NCBI GenBank assembly: GCA_016204425.1
Contig: JACQKR010000036.1
Coordinates: forward strand, 1-40,579
Direction: 5' to 3'
Length of the DNA: 40,579 bases
DNA from: Candidatus Levyibacteriota bacterium
GTDB taxonomy: Bacteria; Patescibacteriota; Microgenomatia; Levybacterales; UBA12049
The notes beneath the pieces are model-generated. The model was not told the DNA's origin. It did no database searches and saw nothing but the letters and a program-made list of their open reading frames with translations. Positions 2,643 through 24,541 of this stretch are shown piece after piece. Positions within the stretch are counted from its first letter, which is position 1. Each line of letters starts with the position of its first letter. The translations under genes and the position numbers were made by a program.

Positions 2643-2681
2643 TGAGTCGGGGTCCTAATATCTGCCACCCCTTCTTAAATA

Positions 2682-3251
2682 ATGAAAAAGATAGAGTTAG
2701 TACTTAAAAAAAACGAAGAAAAAATTCTGCCTGTCATTTGGATTGATGACGATGAGACTGAAATACATCTTGCTGCACGGTTAGTCGGAGATGGAGCGAA
2801 ACTGACCGTTCTCGGACTCTTTTTTGCGACTGAAAATCGAGCGGTTGTCTTCACAACAGATGTAATGCATGAAGGGAAGCATACAACGAGCCTCACAAGG
2901 ATTCGTGGTGTTTTCAAAAATAGGTCGTCGTTCAACAATGACGGTATTGTGCGGATAAGAAAAGGCGCCAAGAACGCGAACGGATTCTTCGATTCAAAAG
3001 TACTGCTTTTTGATGATGCGAAAGGAAGAAGTGTGCCATCTTTGGAGATTGATGAGAACGAGGTAAAAGCAGGACACGCCTCAACAATCGGAAGGCCTGA
3101 CGCGCTGCAGCTTCTCTATCTTCGCTCACGAGGGTTGAGCGAGGAGGAGGCAGAAAGCCTCATCGTTACAGGGTTTTTTGATCAAATCAAACGTTTATTG
3201 CCGGAAAAAGAAAGAAGAGCCGTTGAAAAGAAGCTTGGGGGCTCCGCATGA
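2682..3251 (+). CDS. sufD: Short SufD-like Fe-S assembly scaffold protein
   Basis: SufB/D C-terminal core: VKAGHASTIGRPDALQLLYLRSRGLSEEEAESLIVTGFFD; only 189 aa. Confidence 0.85.
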   Translation: MKKIELVLKKNEEKILPVIWIDDDETEIHLAARLVGDGAKLTVLGLFFATENRAVVFTTDVMHEGKHTTSLTRIRGVFKNRSSFNNDGIVRIRKGAKNANGFFDSKVLLFDDAKGRSVPSLEIDENEVKAGHASTIGRPDALQLLYLRSRGLSEEEAESLIVTGFFDQIKRLLPEKERRAVEKKLGGSA

Positions 3252-8377: not shown

Positions 8378-9001
8378 ATGACTGCAGTACAAGATTATAA
8401 AGAGATTACAAAACAGAGCTATGATGAACATGCAGAGGAGTTTGCATCTTTTGCGGCAGCATTTCGCGGGAAGTTAAAACAGTGGATAGCATCATTTGCA
8501 GATCAGCTGAAAGCAAATGATCAAGTGCTTGATGTCGGATGCGGGGCAGGAAGAGACGCACATTATTTTATCGAGCATGGTTTGCATGTGACCGGGATTG
8601 ATAACTCAGAGAAACTTATCGACCTCGCAAAAATAAAAGTACCGGACGGAGCATTTTTTGTTATGGATTTTGAGGAGTTACCTTTGCCAAAAGAGAGCTT
8701 TGAAGGGGTGTGGGCGAGCGCGAGTCTTGTCCATGTTCCAAGAGAAAACTTGCTGCCTATATTGAAGAGAATTCATGCACTGCTCAAGCCGGGTGGTGTG
8801 TTTTTCTCAAGCTGGCGTGTTGGAAAAGGTGAGAAATTCACTGTTGAGAAAAGAGGGAATGCAGAATTGAAGCGATATTACACATACTATGACCCTGAGG
8901 AACTTATCGATTTGATGAAAAAGGCAGATTTTATAGAAGTAACACATGAGTTGGATGAGATAGAAACAGGTATGTGGGTTGGGGTATTCGCTCATAAATA
9001 A
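8378..9001 (+). CDS. Class I SAM-dependent methyltransferase
   Basis: DQVLDVGCGAGRDAHYF motif I; HALLKPGGVFFSSW. Confidence 0.9.
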   Translation: MTAVQDYKEITKQSYDEHAEEFASFAAAFRGKLKQWIASFADQLKANDQVLDVGCGAGRDAHYFIEHGLHVTGIDNSEKLIDLAKIKVPDGAFFVMDFEELPLPKESFEGVWASASLVHVPRENLLPILKRIHALLKPGGVFFSSWRVGKGEKFTVEKRGNAELKRYYTYYDPEELIDLMKKADFIEVTHELDEIETGMWVGVFAHK

Positions 9002-9002
9002 T

Positions 9003-10991
9003 ATGCCGACGACAGTAAAAGATTTAGAAATAACATACGATAAGCCAAACTGGTGTCCGGGGTGTGTCGTACCGGAGACATTTATTCAAACGAATCCCTC
9101 TTCGCGAGTCGTGACGAAGATTAAGGAAAGTGACCGCGTTATTGGAAGTGACGGGATGCCACATGAAGTGACCAAGGTCATGGAGCATGTCCATGAGGGG
9201 GTTTTGTATAAACTCGTTTCTAAGTATTTCGGTGAAACGTCACTTACCCCAGAGCATCCTATACTTGCAGTCCGCAGGAAACATAAGAAGCTACACAATA
9301 AAGAATGGAAATCAGAATGGATCGAAGCTGGAGAGCTCAAAACCGGTGACTACCTTCTGTATCCTGTTCTTAAAGAGGTAAGGGATCTCTCTTCAGTAGC
9401 GCTCCTATACGACAAAAAAACCAAGGATACGAGAAGCCGGGATTTACCCAAAGAAGTTCGATTGGACAAGGCGTTTTTGCGACTTGCTGGATATTATATC
9501 GCAGAAGGATATGTGCATAGACGGTCGATTAATTTTACCTTTCACGTAAAAGAAGAGGATTTTGCAGATGATGTCATAACAGTGATGCAAGATCTTTTTA
9601 GTCTCTCGTCAATAAAGCGATATCGCAAAGGGAAAAAGACGATTGATCTTTCGTTTAATTCGTCATATCTATCAGAAATATTTGAAACATGGTTTGGGAA
9701 AGGAGCTGAACAGAAAAAAATTCCAGATTTCCTCATGTATCTCTCAAAAGAGAGGCAGACAGAGCTTCTTAAAGGAATGTGGAGGGGAGATGGATGGGTA
9801 AGTCAAAAAACGCACAGAGCTAATTACAAAACGATCTCAAAAGTGCTTTGCGAGCAAGTAAAAATGCTTCTTCTTCGTCAGGGAATTTTACCAACGATTA
9901 CTGTTAACAAAGCATATAGTATCCACAAAGTTTCTTATTCCATTCAAGTCATCGATCCACACGATTTTTCTCTTTTACAAACCTTTCTTAATGGTAATTC
10001 AGACAAGGTGACAGATCGTTCAAGAAGCTTGATCACAAAGGATTTTGCATTCTTGCCGATTAAGAAAATTGAGACGAAGCCATACAGGGGACCTGTGCAC
10101 AATTTTGAGGTAGATACAGAAAATGCATATGTGACTGAAAACGCAATTTTGCACAACTGCGGAGACTTTGGTATTTGGGTATCGCTGAAGAATGCGATCG
10201 TTCAGCTTGAGCTTAATCCGTGGGAAGTTGTTCTCGTCTCAGGGATAGGCTGTTCGAGCAAGTTGCCATACTGGGTCAAGACATATGGTTTTAACGGCCT
10301 ACACGGCCGTCCAATGCCCGTTGCAGAAGGAATACGGCTTGCTAATCATGGACTGAAGGTTATCGTCATTGGAGGCGATGGTGATCAGTATGGTGAAGGG
10401 GGTAATCATCTGATGCATGCGGCACGACGCAATGTCGATTTGACACTTCTGATTCATAACAATCAGATTTATGGATTGACAACGGGGCAGTACTCACCGA
10501 CAACGAGTATCGGGGATAAGAACAAGGCGACACCCGTACCGGTCACTGAAGCGCCGGTGAATCCCATGTCTCTTGGCCTTGCAGCCGGTGCTACGTTTGT
10601 CGCACGGGGTTTTTCAGGCGACAATAAGCAGGAAACCCAGCTCTTAGTGGAAGCGGTAAAACACAAGGGATTTGCCATGGTCGATACAATGCAGCCATGT
10701 GTCACATTCAATCACCACAATACTTTCTCATGGTTCTATGAAAGAGTCTATAAGCTTGAGGAAGCAGGACATGATCCGAAAGACAAGATTCAGGCATTTG
10801 CCAGAGCCGAAGAATGGCCTTTGCGCCGAGCGCTGAAAGAGGGGGAAAAAGAAAAAGTCGCAACCGGGATTTTCTATCGTGAAGAGCGGCCAACCTGGGA
10901 AGACGGCATGCCGCAGATTGCTACGTCCCCGCTTGTCAGACAGCCAATCGACAAAGTCGACATCAATCCCCTCTTTGATGAGTTGATGTAG
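9003..10991 (+). CDS. 2-oxoacid:ferredoxin oxidoreductase beta subunit, intein-containing precursor
   Basis: Exteins join to KPNWCPG|CGDFGIWVSLKNAIVQLEL...VSGIGCSSKLPYWVKTYGFNGLHGRPMPVAEG...VIGGDGDQYGEGGNH; ATG at 9003. Confidence 0.95.
   Translation: MPTTVKDLEITYDKPNWCPGCVVPETFIQTNPSSRVVTKIKESDRVIGSDGMPHEVTKVMEHVHEGVLYKLVSKYFGETSLTPEHPILAVRRKHKKLHNKEWKSEWIEAGELKTGDYLLYPVLKEVRDLSSVALLYDKKTKDTRSRDLPKEVRLDKAFLRLAGYYIAEGYVHRRSINFTFHVKEEDFADDVITVMQDLFSLSSIKRYRKGKKTIDLSFNSSYLSEIFETWFGKGAEQKKIPDFLMYLSKERQTELLKGMWRGDGWVSQKTHRANYKTISKVLCEQVKMLLLRQGILPTITVNKAYSIHKVSYSIQVIDPHDFSLLQTFLNGNSDKVTDRSRSLITKDFAFLPIKKIETKPYRGPVHNFEVDTENAYVTENAILHNCGDFGIWVSLKNAIVQLELNPWEVVLVSGIGCSSKLPYWVKTYGFNGLHGRPMPVAEGIRLANHGLKVIVIGGDGDQYGEGGNHLMHAARRNVDLTLLIHNNQIYGLTTGQYSPTTSIGDKNKATPVPVTEAPVNPMSLGLAAGATFVARGFSGDNKQETQLLVEAVKHKGFAMVDTMQPCVTFNHHNTFSWFYERVYKLEEAGHDPKDKIQAFARAEEWPLRRALKEGEKEKVATGIFYREERPTWEDGMPQIATSPLVRQPIDKVDINPLFDELM
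9063..10157 (+). mobile_element. Intein (365 aa) with LAGLIDADG homing endonuclease domain
   Basis: Starts at Cys (CVVPETFIQ), block B LTPEHPIL, LAGLIDADG-like LRLAGYYIAEG and LLKGMWRGDGW, blocks F/G VHNFEVDTENAYVTENAILHN followed by Cys+1; 1095 nt in frame. Confidence 0.95.
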
Positions 10992-16997: not shown

Positions 16998-18212
16998 ATG
17001 TTACTTTATAATTCTCAAACGCGGAAAAAAGAATTGTTTGTCCCACTGGATAAAAAAACGGTAAAGATATATGTCTGTGGCATTACCCCGTATGACACAA
17101 CGCATCTCGGACACGCATTTACCTATACGATATTTGATGTATTTCTCCGGTATGTAGCCTATAAGGGTTTCGATGTTCAGTACGTACAAAATGTTACCGA
17201 TATCGATGATGATATTCTCAAGAAAGCGAAAGAAGTTGGAAGAGATTGGAGAGAGCTTGGTGATTACTGGACCAATCGATTTCTTTCCGACATGCGGTCG
17301 TTGAACATCCTGCCACCCACGCATTATGTCAAGGCGACAGGATCAATTGGGAAAATTATTGAGATTACAAAAGGGCTCATTACGAAAGAGTTTGCATATG
17401 AGAACGACGGCAACGTCTATTTCGATTATAAAAAATTTAAGTCATATGGAGCATTGAGTAAGTTGACCGAGAAACAGATGCTTCTTATTGCAAGAGAGCG
17501 CGGGGGAAATCCGGATGATACTTTAAGAAAACATCCGCTTGATTTTCTTCTCTGGCAAAAATCCAAAAAAGATGAGCCGTTCTGGGAGAGTCCATGGGGC
17601 CTGCCTGCCGCCCGCCTGCCGGCAGGGCAGGGCAGGCAGGGAAAAGGTCGTCCCGGCTGGCATATCGAGTGTTCAGCGATGATTCATCAATATCTCGGCG
17701 AGCAAATAGACATCCATGGTGGAGGAAGAGACCTTATCTTCCCGCATCATGAAAGCGAAATTGCACAGTCTGAAAGTTACACGGGTAAGCGTCCGTTTGT
17801 CGGATATTGGATGCATATTGCAATGCTTTTGCATGAGGGTGAAAAGATGTCAAAGTCCCTTGGAAATCTGGTTATGGTAAAAGATTTATTGAAAAAGTAC
17901 TCAGCAAATGCGATCAGATGGATGTTTTTAACACATCACTATCGGGTACCGTGGGAATTTCATGAGGAAGAAATAAAGGAAGCAGAGAAAAATATTGTTG
18001 CAATAAAAACAGCATTAGAAGTAAAAACAAACGAAGGACGAAAGAATCTCTATTGCATAAAAAAGTTTGAATTTTTCATGGAGGATGACATCAATGCTCC
18101 TGATGCATTACACGTTCTTAGGAAAATAGCGAAAAGGATTACTGAGGATAATGAAGTTCATTTGCAAAAATCTCTTCGGGGGCTCGTTGAAATTTTGGGA
18201 TTTCAATTTTAA
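16998..18212 (+). CDS. cysS: Cysteinyl-tRNA synthetase
   Basis: VCGITPYDTTHLGHA, GRPGWHIECSAM, HGGGRDLIFPHHESE, KMSKSLGN; contains an in-frame palindromic insertion. Confidence 0.96.
   Translation: MLLYNSQTRKKELFVPLDKKTVKIYVCGITPYDTTHLGHAFTYTIFDVFLRYVAYKGFDVQYVQNVTDIDDDILKKAKEVGRDWRELGDYWTNRFLSDMRSLNILPPTHYVKATGSIGKIIEITKGLITKEFAYENDGNVYFDYKKFKSYGALSKLTEKQMLLIARERGGNPDDTLRKHPLDFLLWQKSKKDEPFWESPWGLPAARLPAGQGRQGKGRPGWHIECSAMIHQYLGEQIDIHGGGRDLIFPHHESEIAQSESYTGKRPFVGYWMHIAMLLHEGEKMSKSLGNLVMVKDLLKKYSANAIRWMFLTHHYRVPWEFHEEEIKEAEKNIVAIKTALEVKTNEGRKNLYCIKKFEFFMEDDINAPDALHVLRKIAKRITEDNEVHLQKSLRGLVEILGFQF
17600..17641. repeat. GC-rich palindromic element inside cysS
   Basis: CCTGCCTGCCGCCCGCCTGCCGGCAGGGCAGGGCAGGCAGGG, identical over 42 bp to 24262-24303 in cca. 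Confidence 0.95.
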
Positions 18213-18296: not shown

Positions 18297-18455
18297 ATGG
18301 AAAGAGTAGTAGCAAGAATAGCAAAAGATCCTCGCAACCAAGATCCAGTTCAGCAATTTGCTGTTGAAAGCGCATTGCGAATGCTTTTTGATGCAGGTGT
18401 TGTAGATCCAGGTGCAGACGCAATTATTGCTGCTTTATCACGCAAGCTCGAATAG
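18297..18455 (+). CDS. N-terminal fragment of the DGR target gene (frame broken)
   Basis: MERVVARIAKDPRNQDPVQQFAVESALRMLFDAGVVDPGADAIIAALSRKLE*; downstream ORF continues in another frame, open from about 18392. Confidence 0.55.
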   Translation: MERVVARIAKDPRNQDPVQQFAVESALRMLFDAGVVDPGADAIIAALSRKLE

Positions 18456-18670
18456 AAGCTTCTGAACGACCACGAGAAGCAGTACTGCCTTCAGCAGACC
18501 AGTTAGTCCATTCTGAGAGAGAAGCACTTGGAGCATTTTTCGGAAAAGACATTGCTGTTCCAGAGCCTCCTAGTGGTTTACTCACTACTCTTGAGAGATT
18601 AGGTGAGCTCAATATTGCTGGCTTTGATCCTCACTATCTTCCCAAGCAATCCTTAAAAGAACGAGATAAA

Positions 18671-19213
18671 TTGCCGGGTTGGAAAGTAAAACCAGAGCAT
18701 TGGTTCTGGGAACAAATAAAAGATGGAAATCTCCCTCAAGATGCAGCAACGCTTAAAGAGGGCTGGTACCTCGTTGATAGGAGAGGAAAGCCAAATTACC
18801 AAGATGATAAGCAAATGTATGAGGATGATTACCTTGCTCCGTTCATGGAGAATCTTAGAGAAACAGGTAGAGTTCAAAAATACCGTTTTGTTCCTGATAA
18901 TTCTCGCTTTGGTGCCTCAGCAGATGAGATTGAACAGGTTATACTTCCAGAGTTGGCTAGTATTTTGGGATCCGAAGGCATTGTAAGAAGTAAAAGAGAA
19001 ATTGAATTCAACGTCTTAGGGAATATGCACTATCCAGAATGGGGAGAAACAAATACATGGGAATGGTACGCAGATAAATTCGAGGACGATAGCCGTCTCA
19101 TCGGTGGTCACTCTGGCGGTGGTGGTCTGGCGCATGTCAGCTACGATTGGTCTGACAACCGGCATGACGGGGTCGGTTTTGCTCCTCTGGTAGAATTTCC
19201 CTCAGAAGCTTGA
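18671..19213 (+). CDS. DGR target (variable) protein, C-terminal part carrying the VR
   Basis: ORF (open without start from about 18392) ending FEDDSRLIGGHSGGGGLAHVSYDWSDNRHDGVGFAPLVEFPSEA, resembling DGR C-type-lectin-fold ends. Confidence 0.8.
   Translation: MPGWKVKPEHWFWEQIKDGNLPQDAATLKEGWYLVDRRGKPNYQDDKQMYEDDYLAPFMENLRETGRVQKYRFVPDNSRFGASADEIEQVILPELASILGSEGIVRSKREIEFNVLGNMHYPEWGETNTWEWYADKFEDDSRLIGGHSGGGGLAHVSYDWSDNRHDGVGFAPLVEFPSEA
19078..19193 (+). repeat. DGR variable repeat (VR)
   Basis: 116 bp ungapped match to 19534-19649; 14 mismatches, 12 at TR adenines. Confidence 0.92.
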
Positions 19214-19338
19214 TACCTTGGTTGCTTTTCTCCTGGCATATCCTTGGAATTTGATGCTTGAAAACTTGGATAAATTTTCCTACACTTTTCTTGATGAGGT
19301 TCATGCATTCTCTAGCTACGGCTTAGAATCGCCGCATC

Positions 19339-19408
19339 TTTTATTGGGTACAGATTTCCGAGTTTTTATCTCCGCTGCGGAGATAAAAAGAGTACTTCTC
19401 CAATAAAA
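19339..19408. other. Extended inverted repeat / cruciform-forming hairpin between VR and TR
   Basis: Inner arms TTTTTATCTCCGC / GCGGAGATAAAAA (19363-19389); outer arms TTTTATTGG / CCAATAAAA. Confidence 0.8.
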
Positions 19409-19533
19409 CAGAGAGGGAAGAGAACTACGTGCCTTAAGCTTAGTGCTCGTATGTAGAGAGCAGAATAAAATACAGGAAAGATAGTTGTTAACAGAACCTA
19501 AATTTCCAGTGATGCAAGAAGGCTTAGGCATTT

Positions 19534-19649
19534 ATTCGAGGACGATAACCGTCTCATCGGTGGTAACTCTGACAATGGTGGTCTGGCGGATGTCAACTAC
19601 AATTGGTCTGACAACCGGAATGACGATATCGGTTTTGATCCTCTGATAG
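19534..19649 (+). repeat. DGR template repeat (TR)
   Basis: Adenine-rich counterpart of VR with AAC/AAT codons (GATAACCGT, GGTAACTCT, GACAAT, GTCAACTACAAT). Confidence 0.92.
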
Positions 19650-19653
19650 TCTC

Positions 19654-19941
19654 TCACATCTTTAGTGTTTTTATCCAGCCACCAAGCATTTTGCCGATCT
19701 CTAAAAGTTGCTCAACGAGTTGCTGGTACTTTTTATTGTCAAGGCATTTTGTTTCGAAAGCGAGTCTGAGTAGTATTTTGAGAAGATCAAGCTTTATGCT
19801 TACTTTTTGTAAGACAGGGAGCTTTTGTTCACGTGGAAGATACCCCGCTAGGATGATATTTTCAAAAATTTCTAGACTAACTTGATCTATTTTTTGACCG
19901 AGCGTGTATCTTTTGCCTTTTGGAAAAAGAGAAAGGAGCAT
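19654..19941 (-). CDS. avd: Avd-like DGR accessory protein (four-helix bundle)
   Basis: FPKGKRYTLGQKIDQVSLEIFENIILAGY...LPVLQKVSIKLDLLKILLRLAFETKCLDNKKYQQLVEQLLEIGKMLGGWIKTLK. Confidence 0.88.
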   Translation of the reverse strand: MLLSLFPKGKRYTLGQKIDQVSLEIFENIILAGYLPREQKLPVLQKVSIKLDLLKILLRLAFETKCLDNKKYQQLVEQLLEIGKMLGGWIKTLKM

Positions 19942-20016
19942 TTTATACGGTATCTAGGCAACCAGGACATTTGTTTGACAGAGCAGCAAAAGTATAGTGT
20001 ATGAATACCTGAAGAT

Positions 20017-20430
20017 ATGGCAGTGCAGGAAACTCGTCCGGGTGGTCACAAGGATATTACGATGCTTTCACGGGCAGCTCTCTTGAAGGAGACATCTGAC
20101 TCAGGACTTGAGCCTGAAGAAAAAGCTCACAACAGATTTCTTCATGACCTAGCGACCAATAATAATGTTGTTGGAGTCGCGTATCTCCCGCAAGGGACAC
20201 AAGGAAGGGGTTCTCGGCTTGGCGTTCTCCTAAGAGAAGTTGGCGTTGGTGAGGGAAAAGAAGCGGTTCCACCTCCTGTTGCTGTTGGGAAATTAACGAA
20301 AAGTTTAAAAAGAAGAAGTCCTCCAGTCTCATATATCATCGTTGGTAACCATTCAGTAGAGGATATTGTCGCACAACAGAGTGCTGGAGCAATTAACGGT
20401 ACGCAGCCAAGAGTTATCCTGTTTTCGTAA
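20017..20430 (+). CDS. Hypothetical protein
   Basis: 137-aa ORF, convergent with yqeY. Confidence 0.5.
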   Translation: MAVQETRPGGHKDITMLSRAALLKETSDSGLEPEEKAHNRFLHDLATNNNVVGVAYLPQGTQGRGSRLGVLLREVGVGEGKEAVPPPVAVGKLTKSLKRRSPPVSYIIVGNHSVEDIVAQQSAGAINGTQPRVILFS

Positions 20431-20872
20431 GTGATTCTTTTACAAGCTTACTCACGAGATTTCCATCCGCTTTCCCTTTTACCTTCGGCATCAGGTTTCC
20501 CATGACCTTGCCGATGTCTTGCATAGAAGCTGCGCCTGTTTGCTGGATTGCTTCTGAAACAAGTTGCTTAATTTCTTCCTCACCCATTTGTTCAGGGAGA
20601 TACGATTCAAGTATTTTGAGCTCAACTGTCTCTTTTTCAACCAAATCCTGCCTGCCTGCTGATTGAAATTGTTCAATTGAGTCTTTTCGCTGCTTTGCTT
20701 CTTTTTGTATGACTGCCAACGTATCTTCATCGGTAGCTGTGTATCCGGCGCCACCTTTTTGGATTTCATAATAATTGATTGCAGAAAGAAGCATACGAAG
20801 CGTTGACGTCGAAACGACGTCTTTTGCAAGCATCGATTTTTTTAACTCATCCTGAAGTTGCTGTTTTGTCAT
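20414..20872 (-). CDS. yqeY: GatB/YqeY domain protein
   Basis: LQDELKKSMLAKD...STLRMLLSAINYYEIQK, KQRKDSIEQFQSAGRQDLVEKE, YLPEQMGEEEI. Confidence 0.92.
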   Translation of the reverse strand: MTKQQLQDELKKSMLAKDVVSTSTLRMLLSAINYYEIQKGGAGYTATDEDTLAVIQKEAKQRKDSIEQFQSAGRQDLVEKETVELKILESYLPEQMGEEEIKQLVSEAIQQTGAASMQDIGKVMGNLMPKVKGKADGNLVSKLVKESLTKTG

Positions 20873-20883
20873 AGCAGTATTAT

Positions 20884-20930
20884 ATACCACTCCGCCCCGC
20901 CCCGCCAAGCGGGGCTTCGTTGGGTATTAT
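20884..20930. repeat. Dispersed hairpin repeat ATACCACTCCGCCCCG..GCGGGGCTTCGTTGGGTATTA, copy B
   Basis: Shares both flanks with copy A at 4776-4817. Confidence 0.8.
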
Positions 20931-22709: not shown

Positions 22710-22875
22710 GTCATCCTGAATCCTGAACTAAATTCAGGACAAGTTTTATTTCAGGATCCCTTGAATGTTGTAAAGACCTGCCTGCCCTGCCTGCCGGCAG
22801 GCAGGCGGCAAGGCAGGGATTCTGAATCAAGCTGAAAGTCCTGCGGCACAACGTGCGGCATGGGTTCAGAATGAC
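22710..22875. repeat. MITE-like composite element with imperfect terminal inverted repeats
   Basis: GTCATCCTGAATC...GGTTCAGAATGAC ends, with a nested GC-rich palindrome. Confidence 0.65.
22777..22818. repeat. GC-rich palindromic element (intergenic copy)
   Basis: CCTGCCTGCCCTGCCTGCCGGCAGGCAGGCGGCAAGGCAGGG, related to the copies in cysS and cca. Confidence 0.85.
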
Positions 22876-23044: not shown

Positions 23045-24541
23045 TTATGCAAGTTTCTGCACTCTCTGTAGTAGGTATTCTTTTGTATTTTTTGCGAGAT
23101 CCTCGTCAACTTCTTCAAACAATTTTTGCAGAATTTCTCCAATTTTAGGTCCCGGTTTGATCTGGAGTTGCTTCATAATATCATTGCCGTCGATTGCCAA
23201 ATCGTTGATAGAGAAGGGTAATGGGGCAAGCTGCTCTTCAATCCGTTTTTTGAATAATTTTAATCTCCAGCTTTCCGCTGTTTGCGTTCCACCACCTAAC
23301 CGGTCTCCAATACGAAGATCCATCATGTCTTTAACACTCTCAACACCGACCCGACGAATAAATCGTCTCACCGCCGCATCGGTTATTTTTTCATCCACAG
23401 TGAACATGTGCCATCGGACGAGTGTCACGATTTTTGTTTTATCTTTTTTTGAGAATCGTAGCCGATCACTTATCTCAGCTGCAATTCTGGCTCCTTCGAT
23501 CTCATGATTGTAGAAGATGACAAGCCCCTCTTTATCAGTTGCTGCAACTTTTGGTTTCCCGATATCATGGATAAGCGTTGCAAACCGAACAATCGGGTCC
23601 GTTGAGGGACAGTATTTCAAGGACAGGACATTGTGAGTAAATACGTCTTCTTTGTGGTGTCTGCCGGGACGCTCCTGAGAAACGCCGATTCCTTCGAGAA
23701 GCGCAGGAAGAATGTATTCCAAGAGATTGGTATTTTTCAAAAGCATGACTCCTTCATAGGCAAATTCACTGCTGAGGATTTTCATCAGTTCATCCCGAAT
23801 CCGCTCTTTTGAAATGTCGTTTAATAATGCGGCATCATGCATAATTTCTTGGAGCGTTTCAGCTTCGATTGAAAAACCAAGTTGCGTCGCTAGCCGGATC
23901 GCACGCATCAAGCGAAGCGCATCTTCCTTAAAGCGTTTGCTTGCGTCCCCTACTGCGCGTATTATTTTGTTTTGTATATCTTTCTGTCCGCCATATGGAT
24001 CAATGAGCTGAAAATGCCCGTTATTGTCATTGCGAGCCGAAGGCGTGGCAATCTCTGGGATTGCTTCGTCATTCAGCGAAGCAGAATTCCTCGCAATGAC
24101 AGACTGATTGATTTGTTTAGCATTTAACTGTAAAGCGATTGCATTTATAGTAAAATCCCGACGGGCCAAATCTTCCTCAACCGTTTTTCCCCAAGCGATC
24201 GTTTCCGGGTGTCTTCTGTCTTTGTATCCGTGTTCTGTACGAAATGTTGTCACTTCAACAACCTGCCTGCCGCCCGCCTGCCGGCAGGGCAGGGCAGGCA
24301 GGGCGTGCTCTCCGTCACTTTCAATAGGGATGCCGACAGTGCCGAACGTATTGTCATAGAAGCCGTCTGGAAAAAGCTTGAGAATGTCCTGTGGAGTGGC
24401 ATTTGTCGTGAAATCCCAATCGTTCACGGATTTTTCCAAAAGCAGGTCCCGAACACAGCCACCGACAAGATAGATTTCAAATCCAGCGTTTTGGAAGGTT
24501 TCATAAATGGAGCGAATACTCTGAGGAATTTTTCCTATCAT
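23045..24541 (-). CDS. cca: CCA-adding enzyme / poly(A) polymerase family with HD domain
   Basis: YLVGGCVRDLLL, WDFTTNATPQDILKLFPDG, RRDFTINAIALQL, LIHDIGKP; carries two in-frame palindromic insertions. Confidence 0.93.
   Translation of the reverse strand: MIGKIPQSIRSIYETFQNAGFEIYLVGGCVRDLLLEKSVNDWDFTTNATPQDILKLFPDGFYDNTFGTVGIPIESDGEHALPALPCRQAGGRQVVEVTTFRTEHGYKDRRHPETIAWGKTVEEDLARRDFTINAIALQLNAKQINQSVIARNSASLNDEAIPEIATPSARNDNNGHFQLIDPYGGQKDIQNKIIRAVGDASKRFKEDALRLMRAIRLATQLGFSIEAETLQEIMHDAALLNDISKERIRDELMKILSSEFAYEGVMLLKNTNLLEYILPALLEGIGVSQERPGRHHKEDVFTHNVLSLKYCPSTDPIVRFATLIHDIGKPKVAATDKEGLVIFYNHEIEGARIAAEISDRLRFSKKDKTKIVTLVRWHMFTVDEKITDAAVRRFIRRVGVESVKDMMDLRIGDRLGGGTQTAESWRLKLFKKRIEEQLAPLPFSINDLAIDGNDIMKQLQIKPGPKIGEILQKLFEEVDEDLAKNTKEYLLQRVQKLA
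24026..24100. repeat. Palindromic element GTCATTGCGAG...CTCGCAATGAC inside cca
   Basis: Perfect 11-bp inverted ends; 75 bp = 25 codons in frame. Confidence 0.93.
24262..24303. repeat. GC-rich palindromic element inside cca
   Basis: 42 bp identical to the cysS element at 17600-17641. Confidence 0.95.

Follow-up and report, generated by a model that had tools for sequence, protein, structure and literature searches.

Diversity-generating retroelements (DGRs) are known prokaryotic devices for targeted protein hypermutation. In the DGR of Bordetella phage BPP-1, avd lies upstream of the template repeat (TR), the RNA that recruits RT-Avd is the spacer 3' of TR, and Avd is required for homing (PMC12875486). 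The DGRs of CPR bacteria (Patescibacteria) assigned to 'clade 2', as they appear in the extracts of Roux et al. 2021 (PMC8144416) considered here, resemble the present locus in host group, in a target protein without a recognized domain, in a variable repeat (VR) at the target C-terminus, and in adenine bias, TR and Avd. The locus lies in a stretch of 40,579 nucleotides from a Candidatus Levyibacteriota genome, hereafter the window. We interpret it as a recently inactivated remnant of a DGR belonging to a CPR-specific lineage (Microgenomatia/Levybacteria relatives), with a probability of roughly 80%, because RT is absent, avd is truncated, the target start codon is missing and its repeat pair carries the most non-adenine differences. 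The features of the locus are as follows (window positions).

18297-18455, plus strand: small ORF of 52 aa that overlaps the target frame at its 5' end but is read in a different frame
18482-19213, plus strand: conserved part of the DGR target gene, with C-terminal VR (homology to targets of complete CPR DGRs, 49-51% identity)
19078-19193, plus strand: VR (repeat search, alignment)
19363-19389, plus strand: perfect inverted repeat of 13 bp with a 1-nt loop, 170 bp past VR (sequence read directly)
19419-19538, plus strand: structured RNA immediately 5' of TR, a three-way junction with closing stem, P2, AAUAAAAUACAG and a covarying P3 hairpin (covariance model, Rfam)
19534-19649, plus strand: TR (repeat search, alignment)
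19654-19941, minus strand: truncated avd, without the first ~24 conserved residues, the ancestral start codon and the repeat tract (NF033474, PF22296)
19942-20016, no strand: left end of the lost segment, where the avd start, the repeat switch and the beginning of RT would be expected (comparison with relatives)
20017-20430, plus strand: orphan ORF, 137 aa, at the expected place of RT (no Pfam match, no homologue in 100 relatives)
20414-20908, minus strand: yqeY, flanking gene (PF09424, E 3e-52)

The VR and TR aligned without gaps over 116 bp with 14 mismatches. Differences were seen at 12 of the 29 TR adenines (A to G nine times, A to C three times) and at two of the 87 other bases (G to C at 19133, T to G at 19171), a bias with a Fisher/hypergeometric p of 4.9e-7. 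These recomputed counts agreed exactly with those of the earlier note on this DNA, as did its placement of the VR at the 3' end of an ORF, which closes at 19213, leaving ~20 bp between the VR and the target stop codon. A repeat search recovered the identical pair, its copies lying 456 bp apart, and these two were the only copies in the 778-kb assembly. Non-adenine mismatches were proportionally most numerous in the window (2/87, compared with 1/523 pooled across six other pairs; p = 0.055), which is compatible with drift once the element had become inactive. The inverted repeat at 19363-19389, with hairpins resembling it by eye at the equivalent position in relatives, is a putative terminator or DGR stem-loop.

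The target frame contained no ATG, GTG or TTG from the preceding stop to 18671, and its conserved part starts earlier, at 18482; the missing start codon could be an assembly error. The small ORF at 18297-18455 is possibly the target N-terminus displaced by a frameshift, although this stays a suspicion, since its similarity to the N-termini of relatives did not exceed that of shuffles in three of four. The target matched no domain in Pfam or NCBIfam, a profile search of PDB sequences returned nothing relevant, and no homologues were found among phages, plasmids and viral contigs. An AlphaFold model was of medium confidence (pLDDT 80.6) and of low confidence within the VR (about 50), and Foldseek comparison with PDB and BFVD gave no match below E 0.001. 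Modelling the target for a C-type lectin fold, which had been proposed as a check, therefore yielded no significant structural match, and the claim of a surface or ligand-binding protein gained no backing from either domain or fold searches. The target homologues share an invariant pattern, GN....WG.TNTWEW...RL.GG..GGL.....GF, which by eye we take to be like that of C-terminal lectin-type DGR targets; this sequence pattern suggests a C-type-lectin-like tail, which the structure comparison did not confirm.

A target-protein search of 384 genomes of the class returned homologues at 49-51% identity, and the named homologue records come from Levybacteria (the family of the window), another Microgenomates genome, Curtissbacteria, Kaiserbacteria, Falkowbacteria and a Parcubacteria genome. 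The order target-VR-RNA-TR-avd(-) is common to seven related CPR loci, with RT(+) next in six. The complete arrangement target(+)-VR-TR(+)-avd(-)-RT(+) was present in G071, G187, G331, G348, Kaiserbacteria and Falkowbacteria, where the RT start adjoins the avd start, and a Levybacteria contig (G410 C45) stops before RT, inside a repeat tract. The VR/TR pairs of five relatives and of the second DGR in the window's own genome showed 15-18 adenine mismatches versus 0-1 others, and the bias was strong in each relative pair directly tested. The window agrees with the complete relatives through avd and then breaks off; the shared order of target, TR and antisense avd, all homologous to those of the relatives, marks it as a remnant of this CPR lineage. 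The DGR origin proposed in the earlier note is thus firmly supported by adenine-restricted divergence, an avd gene and complete homologous DGRs of the same order in other CPR genomes. Its VR/TR pair and target ORF stand, whereas avd, the RNA 5' of TR and the absence of RT had all been overlooked.

Several related genomes showed features of their own. G071, a small CPR genome (about 1.1 Mb; contigs C5, C16, C25 and C26), encodes six RT genes with an avd-like gene near each. Target homologues at G272:C9:7477-9213 (two in tandem) and G221:C5:11263-12063 occur with no RT match in genomes that are 94-95% complete. In Falkowbacteria (L103, 4612-6720), a VR-bearing target tail is fused behind an apparent AAA+ ATPase domain in a 703-aa frame.

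The RNA leader of the TR was examined with a covariance model built on 11 other DGR loci, the window being left out. The model detected 19419-19538 at 50.1 bits (E = 4e-7) and also had places in further DGR loci, several in number. When the leader was folded for minimum energy, the window and most relatives shared a three-way junction ending at TR. In the P3 hairpin, 95.8% of cells were paired and 41 double changes were counted, figures that lean towards the structure because the alignment was fitted to it; shuffles had a mean of 13.8 double changes, with 0 of 500 reaching the observed count, and slid versions gave a maximum of 14. Given the matching fold and the model score, the template RNA of the window still looks intact. 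The leader is apparently a relative of the Rfam RT-16 RNA (RF03019), which gave a full-length match immediately before TR at two loci, the window (31.4 bits, E 0.018) and Levybacteria L099 (44.3 bits, E 0.0015), both below the gathering score of 50 bits; a search of eight other DGR loci gave no match. The likeness consists of the stem plan and a AUAAAAUACAG motif, and the Rfam entry as printed carries no description of the RNA as a DGR template leader.

What is left of avd lies directly after TR on the opposite strand. It matched NCBIfam NF033474 (E = 5e-23; 81.4 bits, cut-off 80) and Pfam bAvd PF22296 (E = 3e-17), and the NF033474 match begins at profile position 16-18, the first helix and the start being gone. 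Avd of the relatives opens with LDIPIFxKxYxxYK; that of the window opens with MLLSLFPKGKRYTLGQ, 24 conserved residues late, and 5' of the match there is no homology and the frame runs into a stop. The full-length Avd of a functional DGR is therefore missing. The C-terminal avd frame is still well preserved, as is the leader RNA, which argues that the loss was recent or that the element is still partly used.

No RT-like ORF was found at the locus, tblastn with 26 RT sequences returned no RT fragment there, and neither the RVT_1 HMM nor protein searches found an RT in the 778-kb assembly. A DGR-type RT is accordingly lacking both at the locus and in the assembly. As this draft comprises 64 contigs and is 72.9% complete, the genome may hold an RT elsewhere. 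Three RTs matched 20429-20629 weakly (best E 0.007), a candidate relic that we rejected as chance, since the same stretch is clearly YqeY. The orphan ORF at 20017-20430 takes the expected place of RT.

The unassembled part of the genome gives room for a rescue in trans, in which a second DGR would supply the RT and full-length Avd that copy the window TR into the window VR. That DGR occupies contig C29 (G000, locus L035; 3011 bp), beside an IS-like transposase ORF, with target at 1398-2153, VR at 2004-2135, TR at 2506-2637 and avd at 2647-3009. Its VR/TR mismatches comprise 15 of 34 adenines and 0 of 98 other bases, and because the contig stops within avd, the RT of this DGR probably went unassembled. 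The intact TR and leader RNA of the window would suit such a rescue. However, the C29 avd shares only about 41% identity with that of the window lineage and its TR leader scores 20.7 bits with the leader RNA model (window, 50.1 bits), so that it looks like a DGR of a different type; the target frame without a start codon and the two non-adenine VR/TR differences also speak against rescue, which we consider unlikely.

Less probable still is an artefact of assembly or strain mixing, in which the real genome carries a complete DGR and the assembler joined across RT. The window assembly is a draft, and other DGR contigs end close to this junction (G410 C45 in the repeat tract, C29 within avd). Against this, the contig continues through the orphan ORF into yqeY, its right flank is the conserved secF-yqeY neighbourhood of the family, and the assembly holds no RT sequence elsewhere; we regard the artefact as improbable. 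In most of the family members examined secF lies next to yqeY, which makes cysS, the DGR and the orphan ORF extra in the window. An ordinary duplication of the gene tail followed by random drift, which the earlier note had named as one refuting alternative, would account for two similar copies 456 bp apart but has a negligible chance against the adenine-restricted mismatches, the adjacent avd, the conserved leader RNA and homology to complete DGRs of the same layout.

Two further observations concern the rest of the window. An oxoacid:ferredoxin oxidoreductase beta-like ORF at 8979-10991 has an apparent in-frame intein between NWCPGC and HNCGDFG (translation, by eye). A short GC-rich palindromic repeat of the CCTGCCTGCCGGCAGGCAGG type occurs at 17600-17640, 22776-22818 and about 24300, in frame in cysS and in ORF 23045-24541 and also between genes.

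The junction missing from the window was surveyed in 25 DGR loci whose avd and RT are divergent, and a simple repeat was found within about 90 bp of it in 21. The repeat units are 1, 2 or 5 nt long: CA/GT in 12 loci, GA/CT in four, C/G runs in three, pentanucleotides in two and triplets in none, with tracts such as (CA)n, (GA)n and C10-12. Examples at the avd 5' end or avd-RT junction, by locus, are the following; L044, L026 and L102 also carry them.

L100, 2004-2021
L062, 1264-1288
L066, 1267-1287
L063, 1489-1513
L045, 2334-2354
L089, 5946-5970
L090, 6704-6717

Where its position was readable, the repeat lies between the avd ATG and the conserved domain. All 18 loci with a traceable frame have an ATG upstream of the repeat and an open frame into the tract; the ATG is in frame with avd in two (G071 C16, G041) and out of frame in 16. 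Five further phased loci beyond the first set, taken from the (CA)7 loci of the unselected scan described below, gave one in frame and four out, and most assembled avd alleles appear to be OFF. In each of the four repeat-less loci (G071 C25, G410 C5, Kaiserbacteria and G275), an in-frame ATG stands at roughly the corresponding position. Repeats were denser at the junction (19 in 3,467 nt) than in the remainder of these loci (6 in 138,521 nt; p = 3e-26), the latter count probably containing one or two junction repeats missed by the anchor. In 18 genomes picked mostly for their DGRs, every CA tract lay at a DGR, a rule that did not hold in the unselected 384 class genomes, where 12 of 25 (CA)7 tracts adjoin both avd and RT and 13 do not; chance alone would place about 0.0005 of them at junctions, on the rough assumption of 40 junctions.

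Because the repeat stands between the avd ATG and the conserved domain, slippage would switch Avd between on and off states, and mutagenic homing along with it. The repeat also sits just upstream of RT and may instead, or in addition, affect RT expression. The DGR lineage of the window is thus quite likely phase-variable through a hypermutable non-triplet repeat after the avd ATG, and the window copy would have lost exactly that segment plus RT. A phase-variable switch on a diversity generator looks to be new, as we found no report of repeats or phase variation in DGRs in the open-access papers searched.

The proposed history starts from the lineage arrangement target-VR-[leader RNA-TR]-avd(antisense)-RT. 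In the intact state, RT-Avd would copy the TR RNA with its structured 5' leader into adenine-mutated cDNA, which would replace the VR at the 3' end of the target gene. A later deletion or rearrangement would then have removed RT, the avd start and the intervening repeat tract; a deletion beginning in the unstable repeat tract is a plausible cause. We infer past mutagenic homing, a one-step deletion and present inactivity at the window locus. Where the earlier note wrote that the cell 'diversifies, or once diversified' a protein here, the past tense fits; the present tense does not, given no RT, an N-terminally truncated avd and a target frame without a start, and present function of the locus is unsupported.

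The remnant offers an example of how a DGR cassette can be lost in a CPR genome, and the intact relatives point to a gating of the mutator in CPR cells by a contingency repeat in the accessory gene. Such a repeat in avd would be a testable answer to how diversification is rationed, that is, why DGRs are not always on. Compared with the CPR 'clade 2' DGRs, the window copy has no RT to place in the clade and a truncated avd, and neither the 5' leader RNA nor the repeat tract at the avd start of intact relatives is mentioned in those extracts of Roux et al. 2021 (PMC8144416). The repeats of the relatives resemble the phase-variable contingency loci of Haemophilus, Neisseria and Campylobacter (SSR genes) in having short non-triplet units after the start codon and both in-frame and out-of-frame alleles; they differ in sitting on the DGR accessory gene of CPR bacteria and in being known from assembled sequence. 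With the BPP-1 DGR (mtd-VR-avd-TR-brt), the window lineage has in common the parts list of target, VR, TR, Avd and RT and the logic of adenine mutagenesis. It differs in an antisense avd directly 3' of TR and a covarying structured RNA 5' of TR; this RNA hints that the lineage may recognize its template in another way than the BPP-1 model describes.
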